A stretch of 64,000 nt of DNA from Deltaproteobacteria bacterium (lineage in GTDB: Bacteria; Myxococcota; Myxococcia; Myxococcales; Anaeromyxobacteraceae): contig JACRMN010000027.1 of assembly GCA_016214955.1 (NCBI GenBank), positions 62,001-126,000 of the forward strand. Reading direction: 5' to 3'. Positions 9,421 to 63,526 of this stretch are shown one piece after another. A model generated the notes under the pieces. The model saw only the letters and a program-made list of their open reading frames with translations, searched no databases and had not been told where the DNA came from. The position numbers were made by a program, and so were the translations under genes. Positions within the stretch are counted from its first letter, which is position 1. Every line of letters starts with the position of its first letter.

Positions 9421-12245
9421 GGCGCCTCCCCCGCCGGACTGCGGAGCATGGCCTCGCGCTCCCGCTGCCAGGCCGAGCGGCCGGCGGCCCGGGCCACCTG
9501 CACCGCCGTCACCTTGTACTCGGGGCAGTTGGTGGCCCAGTCGGAGTTCTCGGTGGTGGTGACGTTGGCGCCGGTCTCGGGGAAGTGGAAGGTGGCGTAG
9601 ACCACGCCGGGCTGGACCCGCTCGGTGAGGTGCGCCCGCAGCACCGCCTCGCCGCTGCGCGAGGTCAGGCTCACCAGGTCGCCGTCGGCGACGCGCCGGT
9701 CGGCGGCGTCCTGGGGGTGGATCTCCAGCAGGTCCTCGCCGCAGAACCGGAGGTTCTCGGTGCGCCGGGTCTGCGCCCCCACGTTGTACTGGGAGAGGAT
9801 GCGCCCGGTGGTGAGGAGCAGCGGGAAGCGGGGCGTGGTGCGCTCGGGCGTGGGCACGTAGGCGGTGGGGAGGAACCGCCCCTTGCCGCGGACGAACCCG
9901 CCGACGTGCATGGTGGGCGTGCCCTCGGGCGCGGCGGCGTTGCAGGGCCACTGCAGGCTGCCGAGCCGGTCGAGCTTCGCGTAGGAGACGCCGGCGAAGG
10001 TGGGGGTGAGCCGCGCGATCTCCTCCATGATCTCGGAGGGGTGGCGGTAGGGCATGGGGTGGCCGAGGGCGGCGGAGAGCGCCGCCGTCACCTCCCAGTC
10101 GGCCTTGCCGCAGAGTGGCGCCATCACCCGCCGCACCCGCGAGATGCGCCGCTCGGCGTTGGTGAAGGTCCCGTCCTTCTCCAGGAACGAGGCGCCGGGC
10201 AGGAAGACGTGGGCCCAGCGCGAGGTCTCCGAGAGGAACAGGTCCTGGACGATGACGCACTCCATCGCCTGGAGTGCCTCGATCACGTGGCGGGTGTCGG
10301 GCTCCGACTGCACCGGGTCCTCGCCCTGGCAGTAGAGGCCGCGGAAGCTGCCGTCGAGGGCCGCATCCATCATGTTGGGGATGCGCAGGCCGGGCTCGGG
10401 GTCGAGCCGCACGCCCCAGTCGGCCTCGAAGGAGCCGCGGACGGCGGCGTCGGAGACGTGCCGGTAGCCGGGCAGCTCGTGGGGGAAGGAGCCCATGTCG
10501 CACGAGCCCTGCACGTTGTTCTGGCCGCGAAGCGGGTTCACGCCCACGCCCTCGCGCCCCACGTTGCCGGTGGCCATGGCCAGGTTGGCGATGGCGATGA
10601 CCGCGGTGGACCCCTGCGAGTGCTCGGTCACGCCCAGGCCGTAGTAGATGGCGGCGTTGCCCCCGGTGGCGTAGAGCCGGGCGGCGCCGCGCACCAGCGC
10701 CGCGGGCACGCCGGTGACCGGCTCCAGCGCCTCGGGGGCGTGCTCGGGCCGGGCCACGAACTCGCGCCAGATCTCGAAGGCGCCGGGCTCGCAGCGCTCG
10801 GCCACGAAGCGGGTGGCCGCCAGCCCCTCGGTGACCACCACGTGGGCCAGCGCGGTGAGCACCGCCACGTTGGTGCCGGGCCGGAGCTGCAGGTGGTAGT
10901 CGGCGCGCACGTGAGGGGCGCGCACCAGCTCGATGGCGCGTGGGTCGACGACGACGAGCCGGGCGCCCTCCCGGAGCCGGCGCTTCAGGCGCGAGGCGAA
11001 CACCGGGTGGGCGTCGGTGGGGTTGGCGCCGATGAGCAGCACCACGTCGGCCTGCTCCACCGAGGCGAAGGTCTGGGTGCCGGCCGAGGTGCCGAGGGTC
11101 TGGCCCAGGCCGTAGCCGGTGGGGGCGTGGCAGACGCGGGCGCAGGTGTCGACGTTGTTGTTGCCGAAGGCGGTGCGCACCAGCTTCTGCACCAGCCAGT
11201 CCTCCTCGTTGGTGCAGCGCGAGGAGACGATGGCGCCGATGGAGCCGCGGCCGTGCCCGGCCTGGATGCGGCGCAGCTCCGCCGCGGCGTGGCCGATGGC
11301 CTCCTCCCAGGAGACCTCGCGCCAGGGGTCGGAGGTGCGGGCCCTGATCATGGGCCGGGTGATGCGGTCGGGGTGGGTGGCGTAGCCCCAGGCGAAGCGC
11401 CCCTTCACGCAGGCGTGGCCCAGGTTGGCCTGGGCCTCGCGGGAGGGCAGCATCCGGACCACCCGCTCGCCCTGCACCTCGGCCTCGAAGCCGCAGCCCA
11501 CGCCGCAGTAGCCGCAGGTGGTGGCCACGCGCCGCTGCGGCTGGCCCAGCGCCACCAGCGACTTCTCGGCGAGCGCGGCGGTGGGGCAGGCGGTGACGCA
11601 GGCGCCGCAGGAGACGCACTCCGAGCCCAGGAAGCGGCCGCCGGGCCCGGGGCTCACCCGGGAGGCGAAGCCGCGCCCCTCGATGGTGAGCGCGAACGAG
11701 CCCTGCTGCTCCTCGCAGGCCCGCACGCAGCGGCTGCAGACCACGCAGCGCGAGGGGTCGAAGGCGAAGTACGGGTTGGAGTCGTCACCGGCCGCCCCCT
11801 GGTGGCTCTGGCCCGAGGTGCCGTAGCGCACCTCGCGCAGGCCCACCGTGCCGGCCACCGCCTGCAGCTCGCAGTTGCCGTTGGCGGAGCAGGTGAGGCA
11901 GTCGAGCGGGTGGTCGGTGAGGTAGAGCTCGAGGACGCCGCGGCGCAGCCGCGCCAGCGCGTCCGACTGGGTCCGCACCCGCATCCCCTCCTCGGCGGGC
12001 GTGGTGCAGGAGGCCGGGAAGCCCTTCTTGCCTTCCACCTCCACGAGGCACAGGCGGCAGGAGCCGAACGGCGCCAGCGCCTCGGTGGCGCAGAGCTTGG
12101 GGATGGAGACGCCCGCCAGCACCGCGGCGCGGAGCAGGGAGGTGCCGGCCGGCACCTGCACCGGCAGGCCGTCGATCTGCAGGGAGACCGTGCGGTCGGA
12201 CCGGGCCGCGGGCGTACCCGGGTCGCGCTCGGCGAGGGATCTCAC
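9417..12245 (-). CDS. fdsA: NAD-dependent formate dehydrogenase alpha (molybdopterin) subunit
   Basis: The 942-residue catalytic subunit has an N-terminal NuoG-like [2Fe-2S] domain (CATEALAPFGSCRLC), then the HPLDCLTCSANGNC cluster motif. Two ferredoxin-type clusters follow (CVVCSRCVRAC and CVSCGACVTACP), then the 4Fe-4S motif CGYCGVGC opening the bis-MGD catalytic domain. The residue coordinating molybdenum or tungsten is Cys in ARVCHAPTG, where selenocysteine is found in FdhF-type enzymes. It oxidises formate to CO2 in the cytoplasm and passes electrons to the FMN/NAD subunit FdsB. The GTG start at 12245 overlaps the fdsB TGA. No sulfurtransferase gene fdhD/fdsC is adjacent; it must lie elsewhere. 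Confidence 0.93.
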   Translation of the reverse strand: MRSLAERDPGTPAARSDRTVSLQIDGLPVQVPAGTSLLRAAVLAGVSIPKLCATEALAPFGSCRLCLVEVEGKKGFPASCTTPAEEGMRVRTQSDALARLRRGVLELYLTDHPLDCLTCSANGNCELQAVAGTVGLREVRYGTSGQSHQGAAGDDSNPYFAFDPSRCVVCSRCVRACEEQQGSFALTIEGRGFASRVSPGPGGRFLGSECVSCGACVTACPTAALAEKSLVALGQPQRRVATTCGYCGVGCGFEAEVQGERVVRMLPSREAQANLGHACVKGRFAWGYATHPDRITRPMIRARTSDPWREVSWEEAIGHAAAELRRIQAGHGRGSIGAIVSSRCTNEEDWLVQKLVRTAFGNNNVDTCARVCHAPTGYGLGQTLGTSAGTQTFASVEQADVVLLIGANPTDAHPVFASRLKRRLREGARLVVVDPRAIELVRAPHVRADYHLQLRPGTNVAVLTALAHVVVTEGLAATRFVAERCEPGAFEIWREFVARPEHAPEALEPVTGVPAALVRGAARLYATGGNAAIYYGLGVTEHSQGSTAVIAIANLAMATGNVGREGVGVNPLRGQNNVQGSCDMGSFPHELPGYRHVSDAAVRGSFEADWGVRLDPEPGLRIPNMMDAALDGSFRGLYCQGEDPVQSEPDTRHVIEALQAMECVIVQDLFLSETSRWAHVFLPGASFLEKDGTFTNAERRISRVRRVMAPLCGKADWEVTAALSAALGHPMPYRHPSEIMEEIARLTPTFAGVSYAKLDRLGSLQWPCNAAAPEGTPTMHVGGFVRGKGRFLPTAYVPTPERTTPRFPLLLTTGRILSQYNVGAQTRRTENLRFCGEDLLEIHPQDAADRRVADGDLVSLTSRSGEAVLRAHLTERVQPGVVYATFHFPETGANVTTTENSDWATNCPEYKVTAVQVARAAGRSAWQREREAMLRSPAGEAP

Positions 12246-58201: not shown

Positions 58202-58948
58202 ATGCCGACGGAGCTGGGCCGCGTCAGCCTGGAGAGCCTGCCGGCCCGGCGCGGCTGGGTGCTCCGCTTCCTGGCGGGCCGCTACCAGGGCGGCGCCGTG
58301 GTGCTGGTGCCCGGGGGCGAGCTGACCATCGGGCGCGTCCCCGAGGTGGACCTCTCCCTCCCCGACGAGCTGACCTCGCGCCGCCACGCCCGCATCGCCT
58401 GGGAGGGCGAGGTGCCGGTGGTCGAGGACCTGGGCAGCACCAACGGCACCTTCGTGAACGGCGAGCGGGTGAAGCGCCGGAGGCTCCAGGACGGCGACCG
58501 CATCCTCATCGGCGGCAACATCCTGCGGCTGGCCTCCGAGCTGCAGCCGTCGCCCGGCGACGCCACCACCATGCCCGGCCTGGAGCGCTCCACCGAGACG
58601 CCGGTGCCGCGCCGCCAGAGCGCCATGCAGGGGCAGCTCGAGGAGGTGGGGTTGCCCGACGTGCTCCAGCTCATCGGCACCAGCAAGAAGACCGGCCACC
58701 TGGCCATCCGCAGCGGCGACAGGCGCGGCGCCGTGCACCTCGACGGCGGGCGCATCACCCACTGCCTGCTCGAGGGGCGGCCCGAGCTCTCCCACGAGGA
58801 GGTGATGGTGGAGCTCCTGCAGTGGGTCACCGGCAGCTTCGAGCTGCGGCCCTCGGCCCAGCCGCCTCCGCCCGGCGCGCCGCTCGACCTCCCGGTCGAG
58901 GCGGTCCTCATGGATGCCATGCGCCGGCTCGACGAGGCGCGGCGGTAG
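58202..58948 (+). CDS. FHA-domain protein with C-terminal DUF4388
   Basis: The 248-residue protein has an FHA domain at ~19-115: LTIGRVPEVDLSLPDELTSR RH and EDLGSTNGTFVNGERV, with the Arg/Ser/His/Asn set that binds phosphothreonine. A PatA-type DUF4388 follows (GQLEEVGLPDVLQLIGTSKK TGHLAIRSG...GGRITHCLLEG). This combination is common in Myxococcota signalling proteins. It would read out a Ser/Thr-kinase target; the kinase is not adjacent. Confidence 0.9.
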   Translation: MPTELGRVSLESLPARRGWVLRFLAGRYQGGAVVLVPGGELTIGRVPEVDLSLPDELTSRRHARIAWEGEVPVVEDLGSTNGTFVNGERVKRRRLQDGDRILIGGNILRLASELQPSPGDATTMPGLERSTETPVPRRQSAMQGQLEEVGLPDVLQLIGTSKKTGHLAIRSGDRRGAVHLDGGRITHCLLEGRPELSHEEVMVELLQWVTGSFELRPSAQPPPPGAPLDLPVEAVLMDAMRRLDEARR

Positions 58949-58990
58949 GGCACGCTTGCCCCCGCCGCCGCCCGGCGATAGACAGGCGGG

Positions 58991-60034
58991 ATGGACAAGG
59001 CCGTACCCCGCCTCACCACGCTCAGTCACGGCGCCGGTTGAGCCTGCAAGATCCGCCCGGCGGATCTCGCGCAGGTGCTGCGCGGCATCGAGAGGAGCAG
59101 CGATCCGCGTGCGCTCGTGGGCCACGAGACGCACGACGACGCCGCCGTGTACCAGCTCTCCGGGGATCAGGCCGTGGTGGAGACGGTGGACTTCTTCACC
59201 CCGGTGGTCGACGACCCGTGGACCTTCGGGCGCATCGCCGGCGCCAACGCCTTCTCCGACATCTGGGCCATGGGGGCGCGGCCGCTGTTCGCGCTCAACC
59301 TGGTCGGCTTCCCGGTGGGGAAGCTGCCCCTCGAGGTCCTGACCGCCATCCTCCGGGGCGGCGCGGACGCTGCCCGCGAGGCAGGCGCGCCCATCCTCGG
59401 CGGCCACTCCATCGACGACCCCGAGCCCAAGTACGGCATGGCGGTCACCGGCCTCGTCCACCCGGCCCGGATCCTGCGCAACGTCGGCGCCCGGCCCGGC
59501 GATGCGCTGCTGCTGACGAAGCCGCTCGGCGCCGGCATCGTCACCACCGCCATCAAGCGGGGCACGGCCCCGCCGGCGCTGGCCGAACGGGCCATCCAGG
59601 TGATGGCGGCGCTCAACAAGGTGGCCGGGGAGATCCTGGCGGCGAGCGGCGCGGTGCACGCCCTCACCGACGTCACCGGCTTCGGCCTGCTGGGCCACGC
59701 CTGGGAGATGGCCGAGGGCTCGGGACTGGTGTTGCAGCTCCGCGCCCGCGACGTGCCGGTGCAGGACGGGGTGCGGGAGCTGGCGGCCCAGGACGTGGTG
59801 CCGGGCGGCTCCAAGGCCAACCTGCGCTGGGTCGAGCCGCACGTGCGCTTCCCGGCCGACCTGCCGCTGGCCGACAGGCTGGTGCTGGCCGACGCCCAGA
59901 CCAACGGCGGGCTGCTGGCGGCGGTGGAGGCGGGGACCGCCGCGGCGCTCGTCGAACGGCTCCGCGCCGCGGGCGTCGAGGCCGCCCTCATCGGCGAGGC
60001 GGTGGCCGGCCCGCCTGCCCTCGAGATCGGATGA
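58991..60034 (+). CDS. selD: Selenide, water dikinase with selenocysteine (UGA at 59039)
   Basis: The 347-residue enzyme makes selenophosphate from selenide and ATP. The start ATG at 58991 runs [16 protein letters not shown], then TGA (59039-59041), then ACK in frame. This matches the active-site SHGAG-(C/U)-xCK of SelD, with Sec17 and Lys20 in E. coli numbering. After the TGA the frame stays open to 60034, with ATP-binding motifs [25 protein letters not shown] and [19 protein letters not shown]. Translation needs SelB and tRNA-Sec, and a bacterial SECIS-like hairpin follows directly (59049-59067). A standard gene caller would start at an internal codon after the TGA and lose the active site. 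The stop overlaps the amidase ATG. Confidence 0.95.
59049..59067 (+). promoter_or_regulatory. Bacterial SECIS-like hairpin after the selD UGA
   Basis: AGATCCGCC-C-GGCGGATCT: a 9-bp perfect inverted repeat (about seven pairs closing a five-base loop), starting 8 bases after the UGA codon. Its apex is 15-20 bases downstream of UGA, in the range used by SelB-recognised bSECIS elements. Confidence 0.75.
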
Positions 60035-61636: not shown

Positions 61637-62266
61637 GTGCGGCTGCTCTTCGCCACCGGAAACGCGGGCAAGCTCCGCGAGCTGGCCCGGCTGGTGGAGG
61701 GGCTCGACGTCCGGGTGGTCTCCCCGGCCGAGCTGCCGGCGCCGCTGCCCGAGGTGGTGGAGGACGGCGCCACCTTCGCCGAGAACGCCCGCAAGAAGGC
61801 GGTGGCCCAGGCCCGCGCCACCGGGCTCCACGCCCTGGCCGACGACTCCGGCCTGTGCGTGGACGCGCTGGGCGGGCGGCCGGGGGTGTTCTCGGCCCGC
61901 TGGTCGGAGGCCGGCGCGCCCGGCCTCTCGGGCCTGGAGCGGGACCTCGCCAACAACCGGCTGCTGCTCGCCTCCCTGGACGGCGAGCCTCCGGCGCGGC
62001 GCGGGGCCGGCTACGTGGCGGCGCTGGCGCTGGCCGACCCCGGGGGCCGCGTGCTGGCGGAGGTGGAGGGGCGCTGCCGGGGGCGCATCGGCGCGGCGCC
62101 GCGCGGGGAAGGGGGGTTCGGCTACGACCCGCTCTTCCTCCCCGAGGCCCACCCGGGCCGCACCATGGCCGAGCTCGGCCCCGCCGAGAAGGACGCCATC
62201 AGCCACCGCGGGGAGGCCTTCCGCCTGCTGCGGCCGATCCTGGCCCGCCTGGCCAGTGGTGGTTGA
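61637..62266 (+). CDS. rdgB: Inosine/xanthosine triphosphate pyrophosphatase (RdgB/HAM1)
   Basis: The 209-residue enzyme removes non-canonical purine nucleoside triphosphates. It starts at the GTG at 61637 (VRLLFATGNAGKLRELARLV) with DGATFAENARKKAVAQAR, ADDSGLCVDALGGRPGVFSA, GGFGYDPLFLPE and the C-terminal KDAISHRGEAFRLL. All substrate-binding motifs are present. Coupled to rph. Confidence 0.95.
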   Translation: MRLLFATGNAGKLRELARLVEGLDVRVVSPAELPAPLPEVVEDGATFAENARKKAVAQARATGLHALADDSGLCVDALGGRPGVFSARWSEAGAPGLSGLERDLANNRLLLASLDGEPPARRGAGYVAALALADPGGRVLAEVEGRCRGRIGAAPRGEGGFGYDPLFLPEAHPGRTMAELGPAEKDAISHRGEAFRLLRPILARLASGG

Positions 62267-62326: not shown

Positions 62327-62400
62327 CGGGGCGTAGCGCAGCCTGGTAGCGCGCCTGCCTTGGGCGCAGGAGGTCGCGGGTCCAAATCCCGCCGCCCCGA
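62327..62400 (+). tRNA. tRNA-Pro (TGG)
   Basis: The acceptor CGGGGCG pairs with CGCCCCG. The anticodon stem CCTGC/GCAGG closes the loop CTTGGGC (anticodon TGG). The T arm GCGGG-TCCAAAT-CCCGC is intact. CCA is not encoded. First gene of a five-tRNA cluster downstream of rdgB. Confidence 0.93.
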
Positions 62401-62447
62401 CTCTTTGACATCGGCAGGTGGTGCAAGCAGGCCGCGCAGGGGACTTT

Positions 62448-62521
62448 GCGCCCGTAGCTCAGTTGGATAGAGCAGCGGCCTTCTAAGCCGCGGGTCGGGG
62501 GTTCGACTCCCTCCGGGCGCG
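62448..62521 (+). tRNA. tRNA-Arg (TCT)
   Basis: The acceptor GCGCCCG pairs with CGGGCGC. The anticodon loop CTTCTAA (anticodon TCT) is on the stem GCGGC/GCCGC. The T loop is TTCGACT and the discriminator is G. No encoded CCA. Very similar in body to the tRNA-Arg(TCG) at 62685, suggesting duplication and anticodon divergence. Confidence 0.93.
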
Positions 62522-62544
62522 CTTGGTCGCGTGGCAATGTTTAC

Positions 62545-62621
62545 GGTGAGTATAGCTCAATTGGTAGAGCACTGGACTGTGGATCCGGGGGTTAAGGGTT
62601 CGAGCCCCTTTACTCACCCCA
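62545..62621 (+). tRNA. tRNA-His (GTG)
   Basis: The extra 5' G (-1, 62545) precedes GTGAGTA pairing with TACTCAC, with C73, the histidine identity pair. The anticodon loop CTGTGGA gives GTG. CCA (62619-62621) is encoded and followed by GTTTTT, which may also serve as a transcription pause. Confidence 0.93.
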
Positions 62622-62684
62622 GTTTTTCCACCCGGCGGCCCCGGGTCCCCACCAGGCGGGGGCGTCGGACCGGCCGGGCGCGCT

Positions 62685-62758
62685 GCGCCCGTAGCTCAGA
62701 TGGATAGAGCGTCGGCCTTCGAAGCCGCAGGTCGGGGGTTCGATTCCCTCCGGGCGCG
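62685..62758 (+). tRNA. tRNA-Arg (TCG)
   Basis: The acceptor GCGCCCG pairs with CGGGCGC. The anticodon loop CTTCGAA gives TCG. The T loop is TTCGATT and the discriminator is G. No encoded CCA. Close relative of tRNA-Arg(TCT) 237 bases upstream. Confidence 0.93.
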
Positions 62759-62833
62759 CACACCACCCGTCGCCCCGTTGACACGAGGGGGACAGCGTTG
62801 TAGATCCGCGGGCCTTTTGCAGAACCGCTTCAC

Positions 62834-62909
62834 GGGCGCATAGCTCAACTGGCAGAGCAATGGACTCTTAATCCATAGGTTGAAGGTTCGATTCCTTCTG
62901 CGCTCACCA
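62834..62909 (+). tRNA. tRNA-Lys (CTT)
   Basis: The acceptor GGGCGCA pairs with TGCGCTC (one G-U). The anticodon stem ATGGA/TCCAT closes the loop CTCTTAA (anticodon CTT). CCA (62907-62909) is encoded. Last gene of the five-tRNA cluster, with a terminator hairpin 17 bases downstream. Confidence 0.93.
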
Positions 62910-62925
62910 CCTGACGAAGCACCGG

Positions 62926-62952
62926 CGGGCCCGCTGACCAACGGCGGGCCCG
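62926..62952 (+). terminator. Terminator after the tRNA cluster
   Basis: Perfect 9-bp stem CGGGCCCGC / GCGGGCCCG with a nine-base loop, followed by TCGTCTTTCT. It lies between tRNA-Lys and the convergent SspB-like gene and could stop transcription from either side. Confidence 0.7.
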
Positions 62953-62976
62953 TCGTCTTTCTCGCGCCGGCGGGTT

Positions 62977-63384
62977 TCAGTCCTTCTTGCCGCCCTCGAT
63001 GACCGCGAAGCGCGGCCGGGGGCGGGGCGGCGGCACCAGCACGCCGCCGTAGACCGAGGCCCAGGGCAGGGCGCAGTCGAAGCGCTTGCCCCGGAAGGTG
63101 AGGTTGGCCCGGATGCCCCACTCGTCGAGCAGCACCTCGGGCGCGTCGCGCCCGGCCACCAGGTTGAGGCGGACCGCCTCCTCCTCCCCCAGGTAGTCGG
63201 GCAGCAGCACGCCCGGCGTCCCCGGAGTCACCACCACCGACTCGATCCGGGCGGCGGCGCGGCAGGCCGCCAGCATCTCGGCGTGGCGCTGCTGGATGGC
63301 GAGCAGCCCCAGCGCCCCTTCGCCCCAGGCCGGGCAGGAGACGGGGCAGGGCGCCTCCGGGGGGTGGTCGTGACCTGCAGGCAC
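62977..63384 (-). CDS. SspB-like ClpXP adaptor
   Basis: The 135-residue protein has an Lsm-like SspB core at ~60-115: RIESVVVTPGTPGVLLPDYL, AVRLNLVAGRDAPEVLLDEW, then GIRANLTFRGKRFDCALPWA SVYG. The ARF-G...v-vP..AvyaIY pattern characterises SspB proteins, which deliver ssrA-tagged proteins to ClpXP. The C-terminal tail is short and basic (RPRFAVIEGGKKD), without the usual acidic linker. Proximity to trigger factor (often followed by clpP-clpX) supports the call. The N-terminus (~1-45, with HPPEAPCPVSCPAW) is unrecognised. Confidence 0.65.
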   Translation of the reverse strand: MPAGHDHPPEAPCPVSCPAWGEGALGLLAIQQRHAEMLAACRAAARIESVVVTPGTPGVLLPDYLGEEEAVRLNLVAGRDAPEVLLDEWGIRANLTFRGKRFDCALPWASVYGGVLVPPPRPRPRFAVIEGGKKD

Positions 63385-63444
63385 GGCGCCTCTGTAACAG
63401 ACTCCGAGCCTCGTGGTAAGCAGGCGGGGAAGCGGGATGCGCCC

Positions 63445-63526
63445 GGGCGGGTGGCGGAACTGGCAGACGCGCGGGACTTAGGATCCCGTGCCGCAAGGCG
63501 TGAGGGTTCGACCCCCTCCCCGCCCA
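63445..63526 (+). tRNA. tRNA-Leu (TAG)
   Basis: The acceptor GGGCGGG pairs with CCCGCCC, and the variable arm (TGCCGCAAGGCGT) is long, as in class II tRNAs. The anticodon loop CTTAGGA gives TAG. The discriminator is A; CCA is not encoded. It stands alone between the SspB-like gene and tig. Confidence 0.93.

Follow-up and report, generated by a model that had tools for sequence, protein, structure and literature searches.

A selD gene with a predicted selenocysteine codon at its catalytic position, followed by a likely bSECIS hairpin, in a member of the Anaeromyxobacteraceae

The stretch of DNA analyzed here (referred to as the window; 64,000 nucleotides, positions 62,001 to 126,000 of contig JACRMN010000027.1, assembly GCA_016214955.1) is from a member of the Anaeromyxobacteraceae. 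It codes for the selenophosphate synthetase SelD, with an in-frame UGA at the catalytic position. This codon is predicted to specify selenocysteine (Sec). It is followed by two adjacent hairpins, and the second of these is likely the apical hairpin of a bacterial Sec insertion sequence (bSECIS). The features are as follows.

58991..60034, + strand: selD, selenophosphate synthetase (selenide, water dikinase), 347 amino acids, predicted Sec at residue 17 (TIGR00476, NF002098, 3u0o)
59039..59041, + strand: UGA, predicted Sec codon at the catalytic position (SHGAG-U-ACK), aligning with the cysteine (Cys) of SHGAGCGCK in 3u0o
59049..59067, + strand: upstream hairpin, AGAUCCGC [CCG] GCGGAUCU, 8 bp, loop 15 nt after the UGA
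59068..59084, + strand: likely bSECIS apical hairpin, CGCGCAG [GUG] CUGCGCG, loop 33 nt after the UGA, with covariation

The product scores 397.1 bits against the TIGR00476 equivalog (cut-off 125) and 383.5 bits against NF002098 (cut-off 299), which assigns it to SelD. It aligns with E. coli SelD (PDB 3u0o) with an E-value of 3.8e-81. The two proteins belong to the same family and share the catalytic loop SHGAG-x-xCK, the N-terminal glycine-rich loop with the catalytic residue and the Lys; the catalytic residue is Cys in E. coli, while its counterpart in the window is encoded by the UGA and is predicted to be Sec. The reading frame starts at ATG 58991, passes through TGA 59039-59041 and ends at stop codon TGA 60032-60034. 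It is preceded by an in-frame TAG (58979-58981). No other ATG, GTG or TTG is found between this TAG and the UGA, so that ATG 58991 is the only usual start codon. Upon re-reading of the sequence, the frame, the position of the UGA, its SHGAG-U-ACK context and the end at 60034 were all found as given in the original prediction. A search of plasmids returned SelD homologs only at less than 60% identity.

The gene resides in a genome (5.3 Mb, 96% complete) that has the complete machinery for Sec decoding. The search for selA, selB and selC, which had been proposed as a check on UGA decoding by this host, retrieved all three: selA (C12:63381-64829, 513.7 bits in total, cut-off 267.9), selB (C12:52126-54048, 309.6 bits, cut-off 242) and selC, the tRNA-Sec with anticodon TCA (UCA) (C21:43796-43890, 74.9 bits). 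Together with selD, all four genes thus occur in one genome, and the claim that the host decodes UGA as Sec is supported. A second match to RF01852 on contig C29 (49.2 bits) was rejected as a further tRNA-Sec; ARAGORN calls it tRNA-Ser(TGA). Among 61 genomes, there is no case of SelB above the cut-off without SelD. The best model score for the selenouridine synthase YbbB in the window genome is 25.5 bits (cut-off 219.75), and a role of SelD in 2-selenouridine formation is therefore unsupported.

We conclude that this is almost certainly an ordinary bacterial selD gene with Sec as the catalytic residue, and we infer that Sec is inserted in vivo. The ribosome on the selD mRNA would reach the UGA at codon 17, where SelB, with GTP and Sec-tRNA-Sec(UCA), would bind a stem-loop just 3' of the UGA, so that Sec is inserted and termination is avoided. 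The SelD product would then convert selenide and ATP to selenophosphate. SelA would use the latter to charge tRNA-Sec, both for SelD itself and for the other selenoproteins of the genome.

Two explanations without Sec were considered. The TGA might be a sequencing error or the mark of a pseudogene, with the functional protein beginning at the internal GTG 59075. An open reading frame (ORF) of 319 amino acids does extend from this GTG to 60034, and naive annotation would call it. However, the catalytic loop that the protein shares with E. coli SelD is encoded before GTG 59075. TGA is found at the Sec site in all 22 SelD genes retrieved from the same family, the window gene included, and in 40 of 48 SelD genes from the order, the other 8 having TGC; these are on contigs of many separate genomes. 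This conservation excludes a sequencing error, and the original prediction is not refuted by a TGC or TGT at 59039. With selA, selB and selC also present, we regard this explanation as extremely improbable. The other possibility is that the UGA is read through in a selenium-independent manner, with another amino acid being placed, as in insect SPS1-UGA. Read-through at the same codon has been proposed for hymenopterans, which lack the selenoprotein machinery (PMC4561486). The window genome, in contrast, has the complete machinery as well as many further selenoprotein genes with a UGA, and Cys is the only alternative to the UGA that is encoded among the relatives. There is hardly any probability left for read-through of this type.

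The position of the recoding element requires a revision. According to the bSECIS model (PMC13188914), the stem has 4-16 bp and the loop is small, with a G in one of its first two positions; the spacing between the UGA and the loop is 16-37 nt, and the energy is -7.5 kcal/mol or lower. The original prediction had assigned a SECIS-like hairpin to a perfect 9-bp inverted repeat located 8 bases after the UGA. The repeat is present (AGATCCGCC/GGCGGATCT, arms 59049-59057 and 59059-59067), but it begins 7 bases after the UGA. Its arms are separated by a single base, and the actual hairpin therefore has 8 bp and a 3-nt loop. This hairpin does not conform to the model, as there is no G in the first two bases of its loop (CCG) and the spacing is 15 nt. 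The adjacent downstream hairpin (59068-59084) conforms to every rule, with loop GUG, a spacing of 33 nt and an energy of -11.4 kcal/mol, and its stem can be extended by one pair (59067/59085). The window site thus fits the model, except that the UGA is first followed by an additional, nonfitting hairpin.

Because the test with synonymous codons is only modestly specific, covariation was used to examine the downstream hairpin. It is retained in all four bacterial families that were aligned, with 99.1% of the cells paired. At base pair 59068-59084, 11 of the 31 distinct sequences have C-G and the other 20 have G-C, with the pair intact in all; an inner pair is swapped in one other sequence, so that compensatory changes are seen at two pairs. 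In the alignment, the Leu codon at this site is CTC or CTG, matching the need set by the first base of the residue after the Arg codon. Families f3 and f9 have a different hairpin at 26-27 nt, with loops that are mostly GUC, GGC or GGG. None of the Cys-SelD relatives examined has the hairpin. We consider it most likely, on these comparisons, that the SelB-binding element is hairpin 59068-59084, and that the 9-bp repeat is probably not bound by SelB; perhaps it is a helper structure. Several points weigh against this view of the gene and its hairpin. An Rfam search of the UGA site returned no SECIS-type match, only matches at chance level. About 4% of synonymous recodings (local codon usage) give an equally good stem at 59068-59084, and the covariation partly reflects a small number of independent evolutionary events.

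A competing explanation accepts Sec insertion but attributes recoding to the repeat at 59049-59067, maybe with a lower stem that reaches to ~59076, which would make a single extended bSECIS of 38 nt. The 38-nt sequence from the UGA does fold into a two-part hairpin that is stronger than chance (-21.9 kcal/mol, z -3.55), and A-U to C-G compensatory changes are found at one pair of the upstream hairpin in 9 of the 31 distinct sequences. Part of the strength of this fold is a consequence of the encoded peptide and of GC-rich codon use, an equally good fold being reached by 1.6% of synonymous recodings. One pair of the upstream hairpin is, however, broken in 10 of the 31 distinct relatives (94.8% of the cells paired), while the downstream hairpin is better retained and has a loop of the GU type. 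We therefore see the extended element as unlikely. It is tempting to speculate that two stacked hairpins, the nonconforming upstream one and the conforming downstream one, act on the Sec codon of SelD in this order, both being needed for UGA decoding or tuning it, but this seems rather improbable to us. The reading frame, the UGA at the Cys position, the machinery, the conservation and the covarying hairpin are read directly from sequences; which hairpin SelB binds is inferred.

The relatives with Cys in place of Sec are informative in this context. Genomes with a Cys-SelD still carry selB and selC. A protein tree was computed after masking of the Sec column, and the distribution of Sec and Cys on it is explained by two changes (the root being the midpoint only). 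The simplest reading would be two losses of Sec to Cys, one in a subclade of family f4 and one in family f2. In the f4 loci (L044, L047, L048, L050, L051, L053 and L054), SelD has Cys instead of Sec and the hairpin is lost, while selB and selC are kept; Sec decoding is therefore presumably retained for other proteins. As the order includes both kinds of SelD, and the Cys forms occur alongside selB and selC, comparing the two serves as a natural control for where the recoding hairpin lies.

Only one bacterial selenoprotein family is more widespread than Sec-SelD. That the latter is known in some lineages, as originally stated, agrees with the literature, which reports it for Anaeromyxobacter dehalogenans, Geobacter, Desulfovibrio and others (PMC1794560 Table 3; PMC13188914); the listing for A. 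dehalogenans dates from 2006 (PMC1794560 Table 3). The window gene resembles these cases in having a catalytic UGA, selA/selB/selC and a bSECIS-type hairpin 3' of the UGA. There is no difference in kind; at 33 nt, the spacing of the hairpin approaches the upper limit of the model. The arrangement is thus already known and is a textbook case; the only refinement, a small one, is the location of the recoding element.

In addition to selD, at least seven genes on other contigs of the same genome have an in-frame TGA at known or likely Cys/Sec positions. The conjecture that SelD may mainly serve selenoproteins encoded elsewhere is borne out by these genes, which include a predicted Sec-FdhA.

C3:238594: FdhA, in-frame TGA, ARV-U-HGPTVAGLAPTFGRGAM
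C26:13173, C10:39852 and C11:2923: three peroxiredoxins with in-frame TGA
C12:198869: thioredoxin-like protein, in-frame TGA, DVWTPW-U-HTC
C23:40258: GRDB-like protein, in-frame TGA, VPA-U-PFC
C11:2420: GRDB-like protein, in-frame TGA, LLTGG-U-RVC

Hairpins that conform to the model, with energies of -11.3 to -12.9 kcal/mol, are found for SelD and for four of these seven genes; those of FdhA, the third peroxiredoxin and the thioredoxin-like gene are weaker. The set resembles the selenoproteins published for A. dehalogenans, which are FdhA, SelD, peroxiredoxins, proline reductase, thioredoxins and a DsbA-like protein (PMC1794560 Table 3). At locus L083 (near G000:C11:2400-3350, minus strand), a GRDB-like gene (LLTGG-U-RVCHRTAVAVQ) has a strong hairpin with a GGUC loop and adjoins a peroxiredoxin gene with an in-frame TGA, so that two candidate selenoprotein genes lie side by side. 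These findings bear mainly on annotation. For selD, truncation by standard annotation had been anticipated, and in the only listing compared, a mechanical ORF list, the gene indeed appears as GTG 59075-60034, without its catalytic N-terminus; in-frame UGAs of this kind occur in at least seven other genes of the genome.

The window itself also codes for a formate dehydrogenase. Its use of Cys, as noted earlier, was confirmed in the sequence.

9495..11522, - strand: formate dehydrogenase alpha subunit, Sec position occupied by Cys (CARVCHAPT), TIGR01591 890.6 bits, outside recoding

The gene 5' of selD (58202-58948, + strand) codes for an FHA domain fused to a DUF4388 domain. Downstream of rph and a Ham1-family gene, six tRNA genes (Pro, Arg, His, Arg, Lys and Leu) are clustered at 62327-63526 (+ strand).
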